From NCBI RefSeq assembly GCF_900103485.1, contig NZ_FNHW01000001.1, forward strand, positions 2,315,057 through 2,379,056: a stretch of 64,000 bases of DNA, written 5' to 3'. The notes beneath the pieces were generated by a model. The model ran no database searches, was not told where the DNA came from, and was given only the letters and a program-made list of their open reading frames with translations. This document shows, one piece after another, positions 51,830-58,019 of this stretch (positions within the stretch are counted from its first letter, which is position 1; the number at the start of each line of letters is the position of its first letter). The stretch comes from Fictibacillus solisalsi (lineage in GTDB: Bacteria; Bacillota; Bacilli; Bacillales; Fictibacillaceae). Both the position numbers and the translations under genes were made by a program.

Positions 51830-52082
51830 ACTTATTGATTCTGGTAATTTTTTCAGACAAAAAAAAGGCAAGCATAGCAATTAATAACGTTCCGATGAAA
51901 AAAGAAATCCGGCCAAACACTTGATAACCCACGGTTTTGCCCTGGTCCATGATTTCCGGTGAGTAACCCGCCGTTAGAAAAAGGCCGGATACCAGCTGTT
52001 TGTTTTTGTTTGAGTAAAACAAAAACCAGCTGCCTTTTAACAGACAGCTGGTCATCCTCTTATTTTTCCGTATTCCTGTCAT
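51828..52082 (-). CDS. Uncertain small membrane protein frame, possibly truncated
   Basis: The open frame codes for a C-terminal membrane segment (GRISFFIGTLLIAMLAFFLSEKI) preceded by a polar stretch with QLVSGLFLTAGYSPEIMDQG, which resembles small DUF3784-like proteins lacking their first segment. The beginning of the frame runs through the terminator of the upstream gene, and no convincing binding site is present; the only internal ATG is at 51950. It may be a remnant. Confidence 0.3.
   Translation of the reverse strand: MTGIRKNKRMTSCLLKGSWFLFYSNKNKQLVSGLFLTAGYSPEIMDQGKTVGYQVFGRISFFIGTLLIAMLAFFLSEKITRINK
52025..52052 (-). terminator. Terminator of the lamin-tail protein gene
   Basis: ACCAGCTG and CAGCTGGT form an 8-bp stem; the minus strand continues TTTTTGTTTT. 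Confidence 0.75.
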
Positions 52083-53982
52083 CCTTCATTAAGGTTTTCA
52101 TATCAATCTTAAGCATCCGGTCTCTTGGATAAGAACCTGTATACCGATATTTGTTAGCGCCGGATTCAAAAGACACATACAGATCACTTTTTACGAGTAC
52201 AGCTCCCTCTTTCATAGGAATGGCCGTAATACTCTTAACCGGCTTTGCATTTTCCCCGTCAAGGAACCAAAGAGGCACTTCTTTCCCCCCAATGGTTACA
52301 TATTCATGCGGTTCTTCTTTCATCGGATCATTATATCGATACAGAACACTGTCATTCGCCCGACCGTAAGACGTTACCAGAGAAATTCCCTTCTTCTGGA
52401 CGATTGCTCCCTGTACCTTTCCAATAGTGGAAAAAACATAGTCTGGTTTTGCGGGCTCATTGCCTGCAGGATCCCACTGCTCGCGAGTCAGCATATCGTT
52501 ATTCGGTCTTAGCTGGTATCCTACCATCCACGCATACTGCATTTCACCGGCCCGGTTTACGAGATGATGAGAAGGATCGGTAGGATAGGCATTTGGCTCA
52601 TAAAACTCACCGACCCACAGAACTTTTTTGTCATCATCATAAACATCATAAGCCGCCTCTACGGGTACCGGGATCTCGTTTGTGAACGTAAGCTCATCAT
52701 TATTTTCTGCGGAGACAATGTCGTTAACATCCAATGTAAATAGGGATTCTTCGGAGGATATCCATACATGGTCCATACTTACGGTAACACCCCCTGCGTG
52801 TCCGGTGTAAGGTGTCCCATCCTGATTGTACAGCACCAATGATTTTACTAGTTTTTCAGTTGTGGCATCTACCACACAAAGTGTCCCTGGTCGGCCATCA
52901 TCCAAATAATTGATGGTAAACAACCAGTTCTTTTTCTTATAATAACCAATTCCTTGAGGAACGAGGTCTTCTGCCAGTCCGGGGATAACAGGGCCATCCT
53001 TGGATATATCCCATAGTGTTTGATACGCGGGATTTCTGTCGTTTGATGATCTTTCGGTTTGCGTGATCAGCTGATGATCGGGCTGAACGCGCAATACGGG
53101 AGATTTCGGTGATTCATTTCCCGAAGTATCTTCAGCCGTGATCTGGAGATCATAATTGAGATGGCCAATCAGTGCAGACATGCGGAATGAATTTTTTGAC
53201 GGATCAACCGAATATTCGAGAGTGCCGTTTTTGTAGATGTTATAACGATAGAGGTCCGTTTCTCTATTGGGATTCCAGGTTAAATTGATTTCACCGTTTC
53301 CTGCCTGTGCCTGAATACCTGCTGGAACAGCTGGTGCCGCATCATCCAGTTTTGGTCTTGCCGGGCTTTGCCCTGATACCACCCAGCCAGGTGTAGGCGA
53401 TTGGCTTCCTGCCAAGGTTTTCATCGTAGTGCTGCTGTCTGTCGGAAAGCCGAACGTAATGGACTTGTTTGCACTTACCTGGCTTCCGGTATACTTCGCT
53501 TTTACGATCTCTTTTCCACCCGGATCGTAAACGGAAACCGTCTGGTTGTTACTGTTTACCAGACCGCCCACATTTTCAATTGGTTGTATATGATCTTGTT
53601 GTATGTATTTACTTGAATATGAGGAAAAGTAAAGGTGGTTAAATCCTTCCAATGTCATAGACTGGACTTCCTGCCTTCTTGGCCAAAACAGGACGGTATC
53701 CCACGGAGCGATTTTAATCGGATTCTCGATTGCCGCATTCCAGTTGCTGGACGCAATATGATAGCCTTGAAGATTGATCTCCTGATCGCTGTTATTATAG
53801 ATTTCAATGTACTCGAACGCATCAAATCCTGCATAATTGTCCGTGTCCGGAACGACCTCTGTGATCAGCAAACGGGGAATCGCACTTTCAGCCGCTGCCG
53901 GTTTAATCGTGTTTAATCTTAAATCCGTACCCAAACCTATAGCACATGCCATCATACCAATCAGCCACTTCCTGCCTCTCAT
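52060..53982 (-). CDS. Exported protein with lamin-tail domain, FN3 domain and C-terminal propeller-like region
   Basis: The 640-residue protein has a signal peptide (RGRKWLIGMMACAIG... ending PAAAES). A lamin-tail-type beta domain follows (LLITEVVPDT, FEYIEIYNNSDQEINLQGYHI, about 38-190), then a fibronectin III domain (VPAGIQAQAGNGEINLTW to LQITAEDTSGNESP, about 215-300), then about 330 residues of beta-rich repeats (for example GTLCVVDATTEKLVKSLVL, KVLWVGEFYEPNAYP). No catalytic motif or wall-anchor signal is recognised. ATG 53982 follows AGGAGG. A long hairpin with T-run lies in its leader. Confidence 0.72.
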   Translation of the reverse strand: MRGRKWLIGMMACAIGLGTDLRLNTIKPAAAESAIPRLLITEVVPDTDNYAGFDAFEYIEIYNNSDQEINLQGYHIASSNWNAAIENPIKIAPWDTVLFWPRRQEVQSMTLEGFNHLYFSSYSSKYIQQDHIQPIENVGGLVNSNNQTVSVYDPGGKEIVKAKYTGSQVSANKSITFGFPTDSSTTMKTLAGSQSPTPGWVVSGQSPARPKLDDAAPAVPAGIQAQAGNGEINLTWNPNRETDLYRYNIYKNGTLEYSVDPSKNSFRMSALIGHLNYDLQITAEDTSGNESPKSPVLRVQPDHQLITQTERSSNDRNPAYQTLWDISKDGPVIPGLAEDLVPQGIGYYKKKNWLFTINYLDDGRPGTLCVVDATTEKLVKSLVLYNQDGTPYTGHAGGVTVSMDHVWISSEESLFTLDVNDIVSAENNDELTFTNEIPVPVEAAYDVYDDDKKVLWVGEFYEPNAYPTDPSHHLVNRAGEMQYAWMVGYQLRPNNDMLTREQWDPAGNEPAKPDYVFSTIGKVQGAIVQKKGISLVTSYGRANDSVLYRYNDPMKEEPHEYVTIGGKEVPLWFLDGENAKPVKSITAIPMKEGAVLVKSDLYVSFESGANKYRYTGSYPRDRMLKIDMKTLMKDDRNTEK

Positions 53983-54035
53983 TCCTTTTCCTCCTCGAAA
54001 TTTTTTCCCACCAGATAACCACCTCCGACCACACG

Positions 54036-54096
54036 AAAAACCCCATGACCAAATGGTGTGCTGCTCATTTTGCAGTACACATCTGTTCACAGGGTT
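54036..54096 (-). promoter_or_regulatory. Long terminator-like hairpin upstream of the lamin-tail gene
   Basis: On the minus strand AACCCTGTGAACAGATG (54080-54096) pairs with CATTTGGTCATGGGGTT (54039-54055), with one mismatch and several G-T pairs. An inner TGTACTGC/GCAGCACA stem extends it to about 25 bp. TTTTT follows, about 55 bases before the start. The same frame is open upstream to 54153, through the hairpin. Confidence 0.6.
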
Positions 54097-54223
54097 CTCC
54101 CATATCTCTACCCATACGGATATTAAACTCGTTATCTGATTATTCATAATCATACCTAGATGTTAAACGTTTTACAATAGAAAATTGTTTAAGCCTATGA
54201 TTTAAATGCCCTCGAAAATTACG

Positions 54224-54252
54224 TTGACAGACTTATTTGAATATTGTATAAA
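54224..54252 (+). promoter_or_regulatory. SigA promoter of the MFS-TIM-barrel operon
   Basis: TTGACA (54224-54229) and TATAAA (54247-54252) lie 17 bases apart. The leader to the ATG is about 143 bases. Confidence 0.85.
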
Positions 54253-54282
54253 TGATTTAGCAATCCAAAAAATTTAATGTAG

Positions 54283-54356
54283 CTTTATGGCCGGAGATGA
54301 AGAGAAGCCATAGTCATTAAAAACATGGTACATGTTTTTTTGGCTATGGCTTTTAT
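54283..54356 (+). promoter_or_regulatory. Antitermination-type leader of the MFS gene
   Basis: The motif GAGATGAAGAGAA (54294-54306) runs into an intrinsic terminator: AAGCCATAG (54305-54313) with CTATGGCTT (54344-54352), inner AAAAACATG with CATGTTTTT (54319-54339), then TTATTTG. TATGGC (54286-54291) can pair with GCCATA of the terminator arm, an alternative structure. The same 13-nt motif precedes the terminator at 56554, and glpP is 3 kb downstream, so GlpP is the likely antiterminator. Confidence 0.65.
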
Positions 54357-54400
54357 TTGTTCTTTTCCATAATGTTACACAGAAAAAGGGGGAAAAAGTA

Positions 54401-55765
54401 ATGAGCTTTGAGCATTTGGATTCTCCAAAACTAAAGCGCTTTCAAAGGAAGGTCACCCTGCTGTCGGCTGCCGGTACGTTTCTTGATGGTTTTGACTTAA
54501 CCGTCATTGCCGTAGCCATGCCGCTCATTTTAAGCCAGTGGGAAATCACTCCTGGTCTTCAGGGGCTAATTACTTCGTCTGCAGTCATTGGCTCGTTAAT
54601 CGGTGCTTTATGGCTCGGAAATTTAACAGACAAATACGGAAGAAAAGCGATGTATGTGGTTGATTTGGTCGCATTTGTCGTCTTTGCTGCCTTAACTGCT
54701 TTCGCACAAGCCCCGTGGCAGCTCATTCTGTTCCGCTTCTTACTTGGGATTGGTATCGGAGCTGACTATCCGATCTCTGCCACCCTTGTGTCTGAATTCA
54801 GTTCCACCAAAAGCCGCGGCAAACATAGTACTTCACTTGGTGCCATGTGGTTCGTCGGAGCGGTAACCGCCTACCTTATCGGAATGCTGATGCTTCCTCT
54901 TGGTCCGAGTGCGTGGAGATACATGCTGCTGGTCGGTGCTGTATTTGCTCTTATTGTTTTCTTTTTCAGGGTTACACTCCCCGAGTCACCGAGATGGCTT
55001 GCCTCAAGAGGACGTGAAAAAGAAGCGGAAGAAATCATGCTGAAGATCACAGGGCAAAAAGTTATCATCAAGCCGGATGCAGCACCAAAGCAAAAGGTCG
55101 GAGCTCTTTTTTCAAAATCTCTTTTCAGACGAACGTTCTTCGTTTGCGGTTTCTGGTTCTGTTATGCGGTCGCGTACTATGGAATTTCCATGTATACACC
55201 AACGATCTTAAAACCGTTTACCAATGGTTCACAAATGATGGTATATACAGGTTCCCTGACGGTGAGTGTACTGGGCTTGCTTGGAGCCATTGTCGGATTG
55301 AATCTGGTTGAAAGAATCGGCAGACGGCCGCTTATTATTACATCATTTACGGGATTATCCATCGCGTTAATCATTCTCGCATTAAATCCCCATCCTACCA
55401 TGGCCTTTTTAGTTATTCTTTTTAGTTTAGCTGTTCTGTTTGCCAATATGGGTGGAGGCATCCTGAACTTTGTCTACCCGACGGAACTGTTCCCAACCAG
55501 TATCCGGGCAAGTGCTTCAGGTCTGGCTACCGGGGTAAGCCGTATCGGTTCCATTCTCGGAATCCTTGTATTTCCGAATCTTGTCGCCGCATGGGGAAAT
55601 TCCAAAGCACTTTGGTTCTTCGCGGTAATCAGCATGGCCGGCCTGCTTGTTTCTGTATTGTTGGCCCCGGAAACAAAAGGCAAAAACCTGGAGGAGCTCA
55701 ACAACGAATTAAACGTAAGTCCAGGAACAACATTGAAAGGAGAGAATCATGGAGAAATGGCTTAA
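54401..55765 (+). CDS. MFS transporter, metabolite:H+ symporter type
   Basis: The 454-residue transporter has twelve hydrophobic segments and sugar/metabolite-porter motifs: GTFLDGFDLTVIAVAMPLI near the start, GNLTDKYGRKAMY between segments 2 and 3, and LPESPRWLASRGRE after segment 6. ATG 54401 follows GGGGGAAAAAGTA; the in-frame start upstream lies inside the terminator hairpin. It overlaps the next gene by 17 bases. Substrate unknown; control by a GlpP-type leader suggests a glycerol-phosphate-linked compound. Confidence 0.85.
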   Translation: MSFEHLDSPKLKRFQRKVTLLSAAGTFLDGFDLTVIAVAMPLILSQWEITPGLQGLITSSAVIGSLIGALWLGNLTDKYGRKAMYVVDLVAFVVFAALTAFAQAPWQLILFRFLLGIGIGADYPISATLVSEFSSTKSRGKHSTSLGAMWFVGAVTAYLIGMLMLPLGPSAWRYMLLVGAVFALIVFFFRVTLPESPRWLASRGREKEAEEIMLKITGQKVIIKPDAAPKQKVGALFSKSLFRRTFFVCGFWFCYAVAYYGISMYTPTILKPFTNGSQMMVYTGSLTVSVLGLLGAIVGLNLVERIGRRPLIITSFTGLSIALIILALNPHPTMAFLVILFSLAVLFANMGGGILNFVYPTELFPTSIRASASGLATGVSRIGSILGILVFPNLVAAWGNSKALWFFAVISMAGLLVSVLLAPETKGKNLEELNNELNVSPGTTLKGENHGEMA

Positions 55766-56525
55766 CAGCTGGTCACTTGGATTGGATGCTGGTTTGAGTG
55801 ACTTTGAACGTCTAAAAGAAGCCAGGTTCACAGGCATTGAAGTCCTGGCAGAACAGAGGAAAGCAGCAGACTATCTGGAATTTGCGCATCGATCCGGTTT
55901 CAACGTGGGACTGCACCTCCCCTTTCATGATCTGAATTTGGCTACTCCCGATTCAGTAGTCTATGAACGTACATTTTCTATTTTAACGGATTGGATCAAA
56001 AGGCTCGCTGACTACGGAGGGACACATGCTACCTTTCATGGCGGATATGCCTGGTTTTCTGAAGAAAAGCATGAATGCTTAGAAAGGGTGGCGGAACGGA
56101 TCCTGCGGCTGGATGAGGTAGCAAAACCGTATGGAATTGACCTTCTGCTGGAGAATTTGATCCCCGATCATTTGAACTATTGTCATCAGGTTGCTTCCAG
56201 CCTGGATGAATGGGTTGATCTCATAAAAAACACACAGGTCAAGGCTTGCCTGGATACAGGCCATCTGAATCTTATGGGCAATGAATTGAAAGAAGCGGTC
56301 GACCGGCTCGGCGCCTGTCTTGGGGCTCTCCACCTATCAGAGAATGATGGAAAAACAGACCTTCATTTACTCCCGGGTGACGGCAACCAATTTACAAAAA
56401 ACGCAGGGGAGCATTTAACCAACTGCCAATTTAGCGGGCCGATAATCTATGAAATCAACCCATACAAATACTCGCTTCAGCAAATCATTGATCATCAGTC
56501 AAACACCAAGTCAGTCTTGACGTAA
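55749..56525 (+). CDS. Sugar phosphate isomerase/epimerase-like TIM-barrel protein
   Basis: This 258-residue protein has the xylose-isomerase-like (AP endonuclease 2) barrel. Metal-ligand stretches include GLHLPFHDLNLATPD, HATFHGGYAWF, LLLENLIPDH, ACLDTGHLNLMG, ALHLSENDGKTDLHLLPGDG and YEINPY. The MFS end overlaps it by 17 bases, and AAAGGAGAG precedes its ATG, so the two are co-expressed. Its substrate could be a sugar or polyol imported by the MFS protein. Confidence 0.83.
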   Translation: MEKWLNSWSLGLDAGLSDFERLKEARFTGIEVLAEQRKAADYLEFAHRSGFNVGLHLPFHDLNLATPDSVVYERTFSILTDWIKRLADYGGTHATFHGGYAWFSEEKHECLERVAERILRLDEVAKPYGIDLLLENLIPDHLNYCHQVASSLDEWVDLIKNTQVKACLDTGHLNLMGNELKEAVDRLGACLGALHLSENDGKTDLHLLPGDGNQFTKNAGEHLTNCQFSGPIIYEINPYKYSLQQIIDHQSNTKSVLT

Positions 56526-56542
56526 TACACTATCGCAGGGAA

Positions 56543-56608
56543 GAGATGAAGAGAACCCCCAGCTATTTTGCCTTTACTCAATAGGAGGCTTCTTTAGCTG
56601 GGGGTTTT
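56543..56608 (+). promoter_or_regulatory. Second antitermination-type leader, before the HAD gene
   Basis: GAGATGAAGAGAA (56543-56555) overlaps the start of a terminator: AACCCCCAGCTA (56554-56565) with TAGCTGGGGGTT (56595-56606), 12 perfect pairs, followed by TTTT. No good promoter is seen between the TIM-barrel gene and this hairpin, so it separates the operon from the HAD gene and probably needs antitermination. Confidence 0.65.
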
Positions 56609-56642
56609 GCATCATTAGCTCATACGTATCGGAGGTATCACA

Positions 56643-57431
56643 ATGGCAAAAGGTTTTATATTGGATTTGGATGGGACCGTCTATGTGGAGGAAAAAATCC
56701 TGGAGGGTGTTAAGGAATCCATCGACTATTTACGGCAGTGCGGTCACAAGGTGGTCTTCTTTACCAATAAATCCATAGCCACACGGAAAGATTATGTAAA
56801 AAAACTTCGGGGATTGGGAATTGATGCATCCATTGAAGATGTCATTAATTCGAATTACATTACAGCTATGTTCTTAAAACAAAAAATGGCACCGGAAGAA
56901 GCTGTGTACGTGATTGGAGAGGCTGCTTTATTCGAGGAACTGCAAAATGAAGGAATCCGGTTGACCGCTGTTCCGCGCGAGGCCAACTATGTGGTTTTGG
57001 GATGGGACCGGCAATTTAATTACCGCAAGCTGAATGATGCCTACCAGGCATGGGCTGCCAATAACGCGATGATTATCGCCACAAATCCTGACCGGACGTG
57101 TCCGATGATGGACGGACAGCTTCCTGATTGCGGGTCCATCATTGGTGCTTTTGAAGGAACAACCGGTCAGCCTGTTGACTATATTATGGGAAAACCCTCC
57201 AAACTTGCAGCCGATATTGTGATCAGAGAAATCTTAAAGTTGTCACCCGAAGATTGCTATATTGTCGGAGACCGTCTGGAAACGGATATACGAATGGGCA
57301 TTGACCATGGCATTCAGACAGTGCTGGTCATGTCAGGCATCACCACGGAAGAGATGGTCAAAACCTCCATTCATAAGCCTTCTTATGTACTTCCAAGCAT
57401 GAAAGACATCCATCAATTACAAATCAGTTAA
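56643..57431 (+). CDS. HAD-superfamily IIA phosphatase (NagD/AraL-like)
   Basis: The 262-residue enzyme has the HAD motifs: nucleophile and acid Asp in LDLDGTVY (about 7-14), motif II FFTNKS (about 39-44), motif III Lys in MGKPSK and motif IV GDRLETDI (about 206-213). The NagD-type cap lies between motifs II and III. Family members dephosphorylate small sugar phosphates or glycerol phosphates. Placed behind a leader with the putative GlpP motif and convergent with glpP, it may dephosphorylate glycerol-3-phosphate or a product of the MFS-TIM-barrel route; that is inference. Confidence 0.87.
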   Translation: MAKGFILDLDGTVYVEEKILEGVKESIDYLRQCGHKVVFFTNKSIATRKDYVKKLRGLGIDASIEDVINSNYITAMFLKQKMAPEEAVYVIGEAALFEELQNEGIRLTAVPREANYVVLGWDRQFNYRKLNDAYQAWAANNAMIIATNPDRTCPMMDGQLPDCGSIIGAFEGTTGQPVDYIMGKPSKLAADIVIREILKLSPEDCYIVGDRLETDIRMGIDHGIQTVLVMSGITTEEMVKTSIHKPSYVLPSMKDIHQLQIS

Positions 57432-57455
57432 AAAGGGGAACCCGGTTCCCCTTTT
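57431..57455. terminator. Bidirectional terminator
   Basis: AAAAGGGGAACC and GGTTCCCCTTTT form a 12-bp stem between the convergent HAD and glpP genes. Confidence 0.85.
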
Positions 57456-58019
57456 TTATATATCAAAGTTCCAAAGCCCAGGATCCCCGGTGGACATGGC
57501 AAGCGCCCCTGCTTCCAGTCCTTTAACAATATCCTCCTTGGAGCTTATGAGGCCACCTGCAATGATGGGCAGGTTGATCCGATGGGTGAGGTGATCAATA
57601 ATATTAGGCATCAGCCCGGGCAAGACTTCAATGGCATCCGGGGCAAACGTCTCACAAATGCTGATTCCCTTTTTTAAGGCCGTATGGTCGATAAGAAACA
57701 TACGTTGAATAACCATTAATTTCTCTTCCTTTGCAAATTTAATCAAGGAACTTTTTGTGGTAATAATGCCTGCGGGCTTCCACTTTTTAGCGATATACTT
57801 AATGGCGCTTTTCGTATTGGACAGGCCTTCAATAAAATCAATATGTATGAAAACACTTTTCTGAGCACATTTCAACCGGTGCAGGTGCTCTGTCATGTTC
57901 AATAGATTACCGGTTAACAGAAAAACGATATTGGATGTGCTGTTTATCGCTTTCTCAATATCGTCCTCTTCTTTTACAGACGCGATCACTTGTGACTGAA
58001 CAAGGTCAACAATATTCAT
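57456..58019 (-). CDS. glpP: Glycerol uptake operon antiterminator GlpP
   Basis: The 187-residue protein matches GlpP: HIDFIEGLSNTKSAIKYI, GIITTKSSLIKFAKEE, RMFLIDHTALKKGI, EVLPGLMPNII and LPIIAGGLISSKEDIV, with the glycerol-3-phosphate site expected in the last two stretches. In B. subtilis GlpP with glycerol-3-phosphate binds glp leader mRNAs and prevents termination. It stands alone here, without glpF, glpK or glpD, convergent to genes with terminator-bearing leaders, the likely local targets. AAGGAG lies 11 bases before the ATG. Confidence 0.93.
   Translation of the reverse strand: MNIVDLVQSQVIASVKEEDDIEKAINSTSNIVFLLTGNLLNMTEHLHRLKCAQKSVFIHIDFIEGLSNTKSAIKYIAKKWKPAGIITTKSSLIKFAKEEKLMVIQRMFLIDHTALKKGISICETFAPDAIEVLPGLMPNIIDHLTHRINLPIIAGGLISSKEDIVKGLEAGALAMSTGDPGLWNFDI

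Follow-up and report, generated by a model that had tools for sequence, protein, structure and literature searches.

A GAGA-loop hairpin before terminators at a glpP paralogue locus of Fictibacillus solisalsi: a probable GlpP antiterminator element

The locus and its leader hairpins

The region described here belongs to a 64,000-nt stretch of the Fictibacillus solisalsi genome (contig NZ_FNHW01000001.1, nt 2,315,057 – 2,379,056; the window) and carries genes for an MFS transporter, a TIM-barrel protein (TIM) and a HAD phosphatase, with a glpP paralogue, glpP2, convergent with the last of these and a gene for a lamin tail domain (LTD) protein divergent from the first (Table 1). The subject of this study is a short RNA element found in three of the leaders. 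The MFS leader has the order promoter (assigned by eye), element, intrinsic terminator and gene, and the HAD and LTD leaders likewise contain the element and a terminator. The start of the LTD gene was picked by eye from its ribosome site and from the sequences of two related loci (L033 and L034).

Table 1. Features of the MFS-TIM-HAD locus, in window coordinates
Feature	Coordinates	Strand	Basis
Promoter-like site for MFS (TTGACA, 17 bases, TATAAA)	54224..54252	+	by eye
Antiterminator hairpin before MFS (proposed)	54285..54313	+	R1 44.1 bits; R2 (without Fictibacillus) 42.3 bits
Intrinsic terminator before MFS	54306..54358	+	score 25.5
MFS transporter (Sugar_tr/MFS_1)	54401..55765	+	profile matches
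Xylose-isomerase-like TIM barrel	55749..56525	+	PF01261; endonuclease IV zinc-ligand positions all kept
Antiterminator hairpin before HAD (proposed)	56538..56558	+	R1 34.6 bits (training row of R1); R2 22.7 bits
Intrinsic terminator before HAD	56556..56612	+	score 27; CCC arm common to both hairpins
HAD-IIA phosphatase (NagD/PGP type)	56643..57431	+	profile and structure relatives
glpP2, GlpP-family antiterminator, convergent with HAD	57456..58019	-	PF04309 profile
Third antiterminator element (proposed), before divergent LTD gene	54087..54118	-	by eye
LTD leader terminator	54034..54096	-	score 31.5; ACCC arm common to both hairpins
LTD protein, secreted-looking by eye	52060..53982	-	

An earlier note on this DNA had reported an identical 13-mer, GAGATGAAGAGAA, over the starts of two terminators at 54294-54306 and 56543-56555. 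Both copies were confirmed, and each touches an intrinsic terminator with a T tail. Taken alone the 13-mer is weak evidence, because the genome holds five exact copies. The three outside the window (L001, L004 and L005) fall within open reading frames or at their starts, and no terminator adjoins them (scores 10, 4 and 5.5). With up to one mismatch there are 26 genomic copies (5 exact included) against 10 for a reversed control, and with up to two mismatches 7 in the window against 2.43 expected, a number reached in 3 of 100 shuffles. The exact 13-mer was ruled out as the signal, being too common in the genome, and its unusual feature is its hairpin context. Also rejected was a one-mismatch copy at 52561, with a terminator score of 10; it falls within the LTD gene, on the opposite strand. 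Searching the genome for GATGAAGAGAA with a T run 3-20 bases behind it gave 0 matches, since that gap is too short for these terminators.

A small hairpin has the 13-mer as its loop, GAGA-N4-GAGA being closed by a short stem (3-8 bp). In the MFS leader (TTATGGC-CG-GAGATGAAGAGA-A-GCCATAG) the stem TTATGGC/GCCATAG surrounds CG-GAGA-TGAA-GAGA-A, and the terminator, GCCATAGTCA...GGCTATGGC-TTTT, has as its 5' arm the same GCCATAG that serves as the antiterminator 3' arm. The HAD leader reads GGG-AA-GAGATGAAGAGA-A-CCC, again with a GAGA-TGAA-GAGA loop, and its CCC begins the terminator. The LTD leader is a variant with a 5-base middle, GGG-TA-GAGA-TATGG-GAGA-A-CCC, the 3' arm of which is used by the terminator, and a Sporosarcina MFS leader has CCGGG-TA-GAGACGATGAGA-A-CCCGG. 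Since the 3' arm of the stem is the 5' arm of the terminator, the small hairpin and the terminator exclude each other. The earlier view that the motif is conserved independently of the hairpin holds for the loop but not for its flanks, which pair together and share the terminator arm. The antiterminator hairpin, the LTD site and the presence of three GlpP paralogues (see below) had escaped the earlier note.

Minimum-energy folding of the MFS leader gave the small hairpin from the first 31 nt (-6.0 kcal/mol) and the terminator from 75 nt (-28.2). The glpD leader of the same genome and the LTD leader (the latter at 31-34 bases) fold in the same manner, small hairpin and then terminator, and in the HAD leader the GGG/CCC pairing recurs with a shift inside the C run, together with two outer pairs (-3.8). 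Terminators were given a score by a simple criterion, a hairpin beginning with the element 3' arm and ending in T. Among matches of the search models described below, a score of at least 16 was reached by 62 of 64 glp-linked sites (the exceptions being L130, 13.5, and L162, 13) and by 0 of 18 unrelated sites (highest 15.5); among 2000 random places the share scoring 16 or more is 3%, and that scoring 20 or more 0.85%. Locus L132, which is clipped, stands outside the 64 and was scored separately (12.5).

It is highly probable that the window operon is controlled by antiterminator hairpins of the GlpP family, with the motif as their recognition loop. The small hairpin could form first as the leader RNA emerges. 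Without inducer it would be too weak, its 3' arm would be taken by the terminator and transcription would stop, while GlpP carrying glycerol-3-phosphate (G3P) would hold the small hairpin and so let transcription enter the genes. The window would contain three such switches, one for MFS-TIM, one for HAD, placed as an attenuator within the operon, and one for the divergent LTD gene.

Conservation in relatives and searches for the element

The TIM gene was present at 27 loci. A GlpP2 gene accompanies it at 17 of them, and at all 17 the element precedes MFS (model R1, at least 20 bits; the weakest site, in L046, has 20.5 bits). Twelve of these MFS sites are R1 training rows, first found by pattern, and the other five (L033, L035, L046, L050 and L055) were not in training. 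At the ten TIM loci without a GlpP2 gene the element was found before MFS in two (L044, and L040, where the contig ends early), giving a co-occurrence of GlpP2 and the MFS element at p 2e-5 (Fisher test, kinship ignored). Loci L038, L048, L050 and L055 have the element also before a glpD gene adjoining glpP2 (glpD of L048 and L055 named by eye); the L048 glpD site is weak (10.5 bits) and has a middle one base longer. Elements of the LTD type occur in relatives with middles of five (L033, L034), four (L035, L036, L041, L054) and six bases (L037). In Parageobacillus thermantarcticus (L045:5399-5957) the MFS gene is without its middle, residues about 62-309 failing to align, and the searches reported no element ahead of it.

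For the comparative alignments A2-A5, sites having a 2-base 3' spacer were left out (the HAD sites of L035, L036 and L037, and the sites of L050 and L055), as were the weak L046 and L048 glpD sites, and in A3-A5 one or a few were kept among near-identical rows. Among 29 distinct rows the innermost pair of the stem (columns 8/24) is GC in 13, UA in 8, CG in 6, AU in one and unpaired in one, i.e. pairing is kept in 28 rows and all four Watson-Crick pairs occur. The covariation score of the whole structure was 0.371 against 0.131 when shuffled, and 0 of 500 shuffles reached 0.371.

The core GAGA-N4/5-GAGA is present in 30 of 30 glpP-glpF leaders fetched in the family (e.g. GTGACGGAGAACATGGAGATCCAC; background 0.03 per 200 nt), many of which are near-identical, and none of the 30 has the exact 13-mer. 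In F. solisalsi itself the glpF leader has GAGA-ATCG-GAGA and the glpD leader GGTC-GGAGCTATGGAGA-GACC (loop GAGC-TATG-GAGA), and both run into a terminator. What the new leaders have in common with the glpD, glpF and glpT leaders is thus an architecture and not the 13-mer. Control by GlpP, which the earlier note had proposed for MFS-TIM-HAD, gains support from the conservation in relatives and from the fact that an element of this same architecture precedes glpD, glpT and glpF.

Model R2 was built on A3, 16 rows with no Fictibacillus sequence, of which two were glpD/glpP-linked and two LTD rows. In the genome of F. solisalsi it places the MFS site first (E 4e-8). Over 199 genomes of the order it gave 30 matches in 25 genomes, 28 of them glp-linked: 14 lie upstream of glpD, 6 of LTD, 2 of HAD, 2 of ugpB-like and 2 of MFS genes (one being this window), 1 each of an MgtC-GDPD pair and a GlpD-like oxidoreductase, and 2 of unrelated genes. 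Model R3 (31 rows) found matches in 30 of 34 family genomes (E 0.01) and in 30 of 398 class genomes (E 3e-4); 30 of the 69 family matches and 30 of the 37 class matches were read in context. Among 27 new family loci 21 were glp-linked (6 MFS, 2 ugpB-like, 13 glpD), as were 18 of the 30 class loci. The counts of these large searches are lower bounds, because only 18-36 candidates per genome were scored and the filters were strict.

Among the additions made by R3 are two glpT leaders (L172 and L175; TIGR00712, 850.8 and 852.7 bits, cut-off 632.55) and a dhaK leader (L181:1501-2607, beside divergent glpF and glpK; 487.7 bits, cut-off 406.25), making dihydroxyacetone kinase a possible GlpP target. 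Further sites precede glpA-like pieces (L162, 473.3 bits, and L163, 500.2 bits, both under the cut-off of 552.8) and, in L174, a PpaX-like HAD gene (157 bits against a cut-off of 218) with an MFS orthologue downstream. The matches at L144-L147 were rejected; they are conserved but lie within a reading frame.

A number of observations weigh against control of these leaders by GlpP, or against the proposed structure. By its letters the 13-mer fails the comparison with the organism's own glp leaders that the earlier note had asked for, being absent from both glpF and glpD, where an element of the same kind with its terminator is nevertheless present. In energy folding, the first 31-38 bases of the glpF leader of this genome do not form the proposed hairpin, and the loop in its GlpP3 leader has diverged from the consensus. 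The persistence in relatives that is complete for MFS at the GlpP2 loci is weaker for HAD, the element between TIM and HAD being strong (at least 25 bits) in only 6 of 18 loci with HAD as a neighbour, and at 14-16 bits before HAD in L040 and L054. Within the stem, the G-C pairs 6/26 and 7/25 are invariant, and of the three inner pairs only the innermost is tested by change. Moreover, sliding the partners by three columns still scores 0.334; since this comes close to the 0.371 of the proposed pairing, the outer three pairs (paired in 14 to 18 of the 29 rows) are weak evidence and the firm claim is limited to the three inner pairs.

The searches have weaknesses as well. R2 ranks the HAD site third in its own genome, behind a probably chance match at C4:2712253 (23.7 bits), which was rejected as an element on its terminator score of 7.5; R3 reports this site too, together with one coding site. 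The R2 matches at glpD and LTD genes are not wholly independent, because A3 held 4 such rows among its 16. Unrelated sites account for 12 of 30 class loci and for 6 of 27 new family loci, so the model E-values are too good. None of the three models reports the glpF, glpD or LTD leaders of this genome, where the elements were located by eye or by pattern, and most genomes with a GlpP match give no element match at these cut-offs. The missing matches in those genomes may be due to the strict filters and to poorly fitting glpF-type loops.

Gene products and a possible pathway

The TIM protein matches AP_endonuc_2 (PF01261, E 0.001), and the Pfam profile search gave no match of it to PF03009 (GDPD). 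Its family aligns end to end with the endonuclease IV (Nfo) of E. coli. It keeps all nine zinc ligands of that enzyme, which we take to be numbered H60, H97, E135, D169, H172, H195, D204, H206 and E235 (the letters were verified on E. coli nfo). That none of the nine varies among 24 homologues points to a phosphodiester as substrate. It differs from endonuclease IV in its low identity (23%), in a score far below the cut-off of the Nfo model (37.6 bits, cut-off 129.65) and in being encoded in an operon with a transporter. The HAD protein is closest to NagD/PGP-type phosphatases, and its solved relatives include glycerol-3-phosphate phosphatases, while the best solved relatives of the MFS protein are phosphate transporters and the glucose transporter GlcP. 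Genes linked to the cluster in relatives encode GDPD, ugpB-like and MgtC proteins and an LTD protein bearing a metallophosphoesterase.

To judge from these similarities, the chances are about even that the operon degrades or uses a glycerophosphodiester. The MFS protein would then import the diester and the TIM protein, with its endonuclease-IV-type zinc site, would cleave it; the G3P released would induce the operon through GlpP, and the HAD protein would remove the phosphate. This whole pathway is as evenly poised as the function it would serve.

It is also conceivable, if somewhat less so, that the substrate of the operon is a sugar phosphate, with the TIM protein acting as a sugar epimerase or isomerase, and that G3P control exists only because the product feeds triose metabolism. 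The predicted structure (pLDDT 90.7) has as its nearest folds MJ1311 and the D-psicose and D-tagatose 3-epimerases, with no endonuclease IV among the 50 fold matches listed, and the best NCBIfam match is D-psicose 3-epimerase, though at 48.1 bits against a cut-off of 300. Such an enzyme is harder to reconcile with the invariance of the nine endonuclease IV ligands, the D204/H206 pair being missing from the three epimerase alignments listed, or with the recurrence of GDPD, ugpB-like and metallophosphoesterase genes nearby or behind the element.

In Sporosarcina, the region upstream of MFS encodes a large LTD protein whose C-terminal domain is a calcineurin-like phosphoesterase (L048:1-4155, minus strand), and in Sporosarcina koreensis the genes directly upstream of MFS are those of an ABC transporter, its binding protein ugpB-like, and of a GDPD (L055:439-4304). 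In relatives the MFS-TIM-HAD cluster also includes a gene for an MgtC-family membrane protein that is absent from the window (L037:7705-8412, by Pfam; by eye in L038, L041, L042, L046, L048, L050, L054 and L055).

GlpP paralogues and other antitermination systems

The genome encodes three PF04309 proteins, GlpP1, GlpP2 (in the window) and GlpP3. GlpP2 matches the G3P_antiterm profile (PF04309) over positions 1-173 of 173 with 213.9 bits (cut-off 27), and its sequence resembles 3kts and 1vkf. The earlier description of glpP as a convergent neighbour without glpF, glpK or glpD is correct for the locus, glpP2 being convergent with HAD, but not for the genome, which has these three genes beside glpP1 on another contig. 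In a tree of 42 proteins (midpoint root, with a long-branch warning) GlpP1, GlpP2 and GlpP3 form separate groups. The neighbouring GlpP2 is most likely the acting protein, being favoured by its position. Among the 199 genomes searched with R2, a match was found in 12 of the 16 with a GlpP2-type protein and in 13 of the 183 without (p 1e-9, kinship ignored), GlpP2-type being defined as E 1e-60 or better, a cut-off of the author's choosing.

It is unlikely, though by no means negligible, that the leaders are GlpP targets driven by the classical GlpP1, or by GlpP1 and GlpP2 with crosstalk. Genomes with a single GlpP of the classical type (e.g. G088, G123, G176 and G200) have GAGATTAGGAGA loops before glpD; the classical protein therefore seems to accept GAGA-N4-GAGA, and crosstalk between the paralogues is possible. 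However, a GlpP2 gene is present at 17 of the 19 loci where the element precedes MFS, GlpP2 is separate from GlpP1 in the tree, and the glpF and glpD loops of this genome are not the same in every detail as the loops of the new operon.

LicT, SacT and GlcT belong to a protein family unrelated to GlpP, and EutV and other ANTAR proteins to another family again, with a pair of hairpins as target. The element described here has a single purine-rich loop at the apex of a short stem, where LicT/SacT/GlcT targets have two bulges, and one hairpin where EutV/ANTAR has two. HutP and TRAP use many spaced repeats, in place of the two GAGA halves within one loop seen here. Resemblances exist as well (here and below, literature statements refer to portions of the papers cited): LicT/SacT/GlcT proteins steady an RNA hairpin that excludes a terminator (PMC7430163), EutV/ANTAR is an RNA-binding antiterminator acting on leader RNA (PMC3369931), and HutP/TRAP read short repeated purine-rich triplets (PMC7430163). 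A short hairpin overlapping a terminator is general to several systems (PMC7430163), and the loop could in principle be read by another antiterminator of the LicT/SacT or ANTAR type, or directly by a metabolite. This is very improbable, as the targets are glp genes and 0 of 17 genomes without any GlpP match have an R2 match, a sample too small to weigh much alone. At the gathering score no Rfam family was found on the window leaders or on 9 relative loci with the element, and a lax search of 53950-57450 gave only 5 implausible matches, all under gathering scores; the 15-nt loop is also, in our judgement, small for a metabolite pocket.

That two purine-rich strings lie beside ordinary terminators by chance, a view to which the five exact 13-mer copies and the scoring of such loops at 12 unrelated loci among the 30 class loci might lend some colour, is extremely improbable given the element before orthologous MFS genes, the covariation and the model matches at glpD, and for the MFS site we judge it unlikely already.

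The closest known system is that of Bacillus subtilis, where GlpP activates glpD, glpFK and glpTQ via a leader site and terminator (PMC9604022), and G3P-bound GlpP binds the antiterminator (PMC7430163). A GlpP-family protein, a promoter, a short leader, a site and an intrinsic terminator are common to that system (PMC9604022) and the window, and the hairpin-loop architecture is shared with glpD and glpT leaders of relatives, the GAGA-N4/5-GAGA core with glpF. We infer that GlpP, most likely the GlpP2 paralogue, binds the new leaders in dependence on G3P. The differences lie in the targets (MFS, an endonuclease-IV-like TIM protein, HAD and LTD), in the paralogous GlpP2 and in one switch being inside the operon. 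The loop also differs, GAGA-TGAA-GAGA here against GAGA-ATCG-GAGA or GAGA-ACATG-GAGA in glp leaders, a comparison that covers leaders of this genome and of relatives.

A printed consensus for the GlpP RNA site was not found in the literature consulted, which included portions of PMC9604022, PMC3997798, PMC7430163, PMC3750489 and PMC3302838; the classical papers (Glatz 1996, 1998; Darbon 2002; Holmberg 1991, 1992) were outside that reach and the supplement of PMC9604022 is said to show the GlpP site, so the site may be published. A 2013 Thermotoga survey states that the GlpP regulon was left out of its comparative genomics (PMC3750489). The element offers a compact, testable RNA target of 31 nt with a shared-arm switch, ties the leaders of the window to glpD, glpT and one dhaK leader in Bacilli, and adds a new gene set to the likely GlpP regulon. 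It also opens a route toward the function of the MFS transporter, TIM-barrel enzyme, HAD phosphatase and LTD protein.

A broader interpretation can be put forward tentatively, as one that falls a little short of an even chance. GlpP proteins may be paralogous antiterminators with regulons of their own that read one RNA fold, in which two facing GAGA halves (possibly stacked G-A pairs) with a 4-6 base cap sit on a short stem whose arm starts the terminator. GlpP2 would then serve a new glycerophosphodiester salvage (LTD protein, MFS transporter, endonuclease-IV-like diesterase and HAD phosphatase) and GlpP3 an operon for a galactitol-type phosphotransferase system (PTS). If GlpP3 controls such a PTS operon, it may answer to another polyol phosphate.

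At L029:1471-2034 and L031:1934-3899 (C4:3201933 onward in this genome), the gene for GlpP3 precedes a galactitol-type PTS IIC gene, which scores 414.3 bits with EIIC-GAT, under the cut-off of 542.2. In four relatives within the order (L189-L192) the GlpP3-PTS leader has a GAGA-like loop with an overlapping terminator, with GAGACGATGTGAGA between GGG and CCC in L191 and L192 and GAGG...GAGA in L189 and L190. At E 1e-50 the GlpP3 paralogue occurs in 5 of 397 genomes. Elsewhere in the window, a c-di-AMP riboswitch (RF00379, 88.3 bits) is located at nt 2338-2488 on the minus strand.

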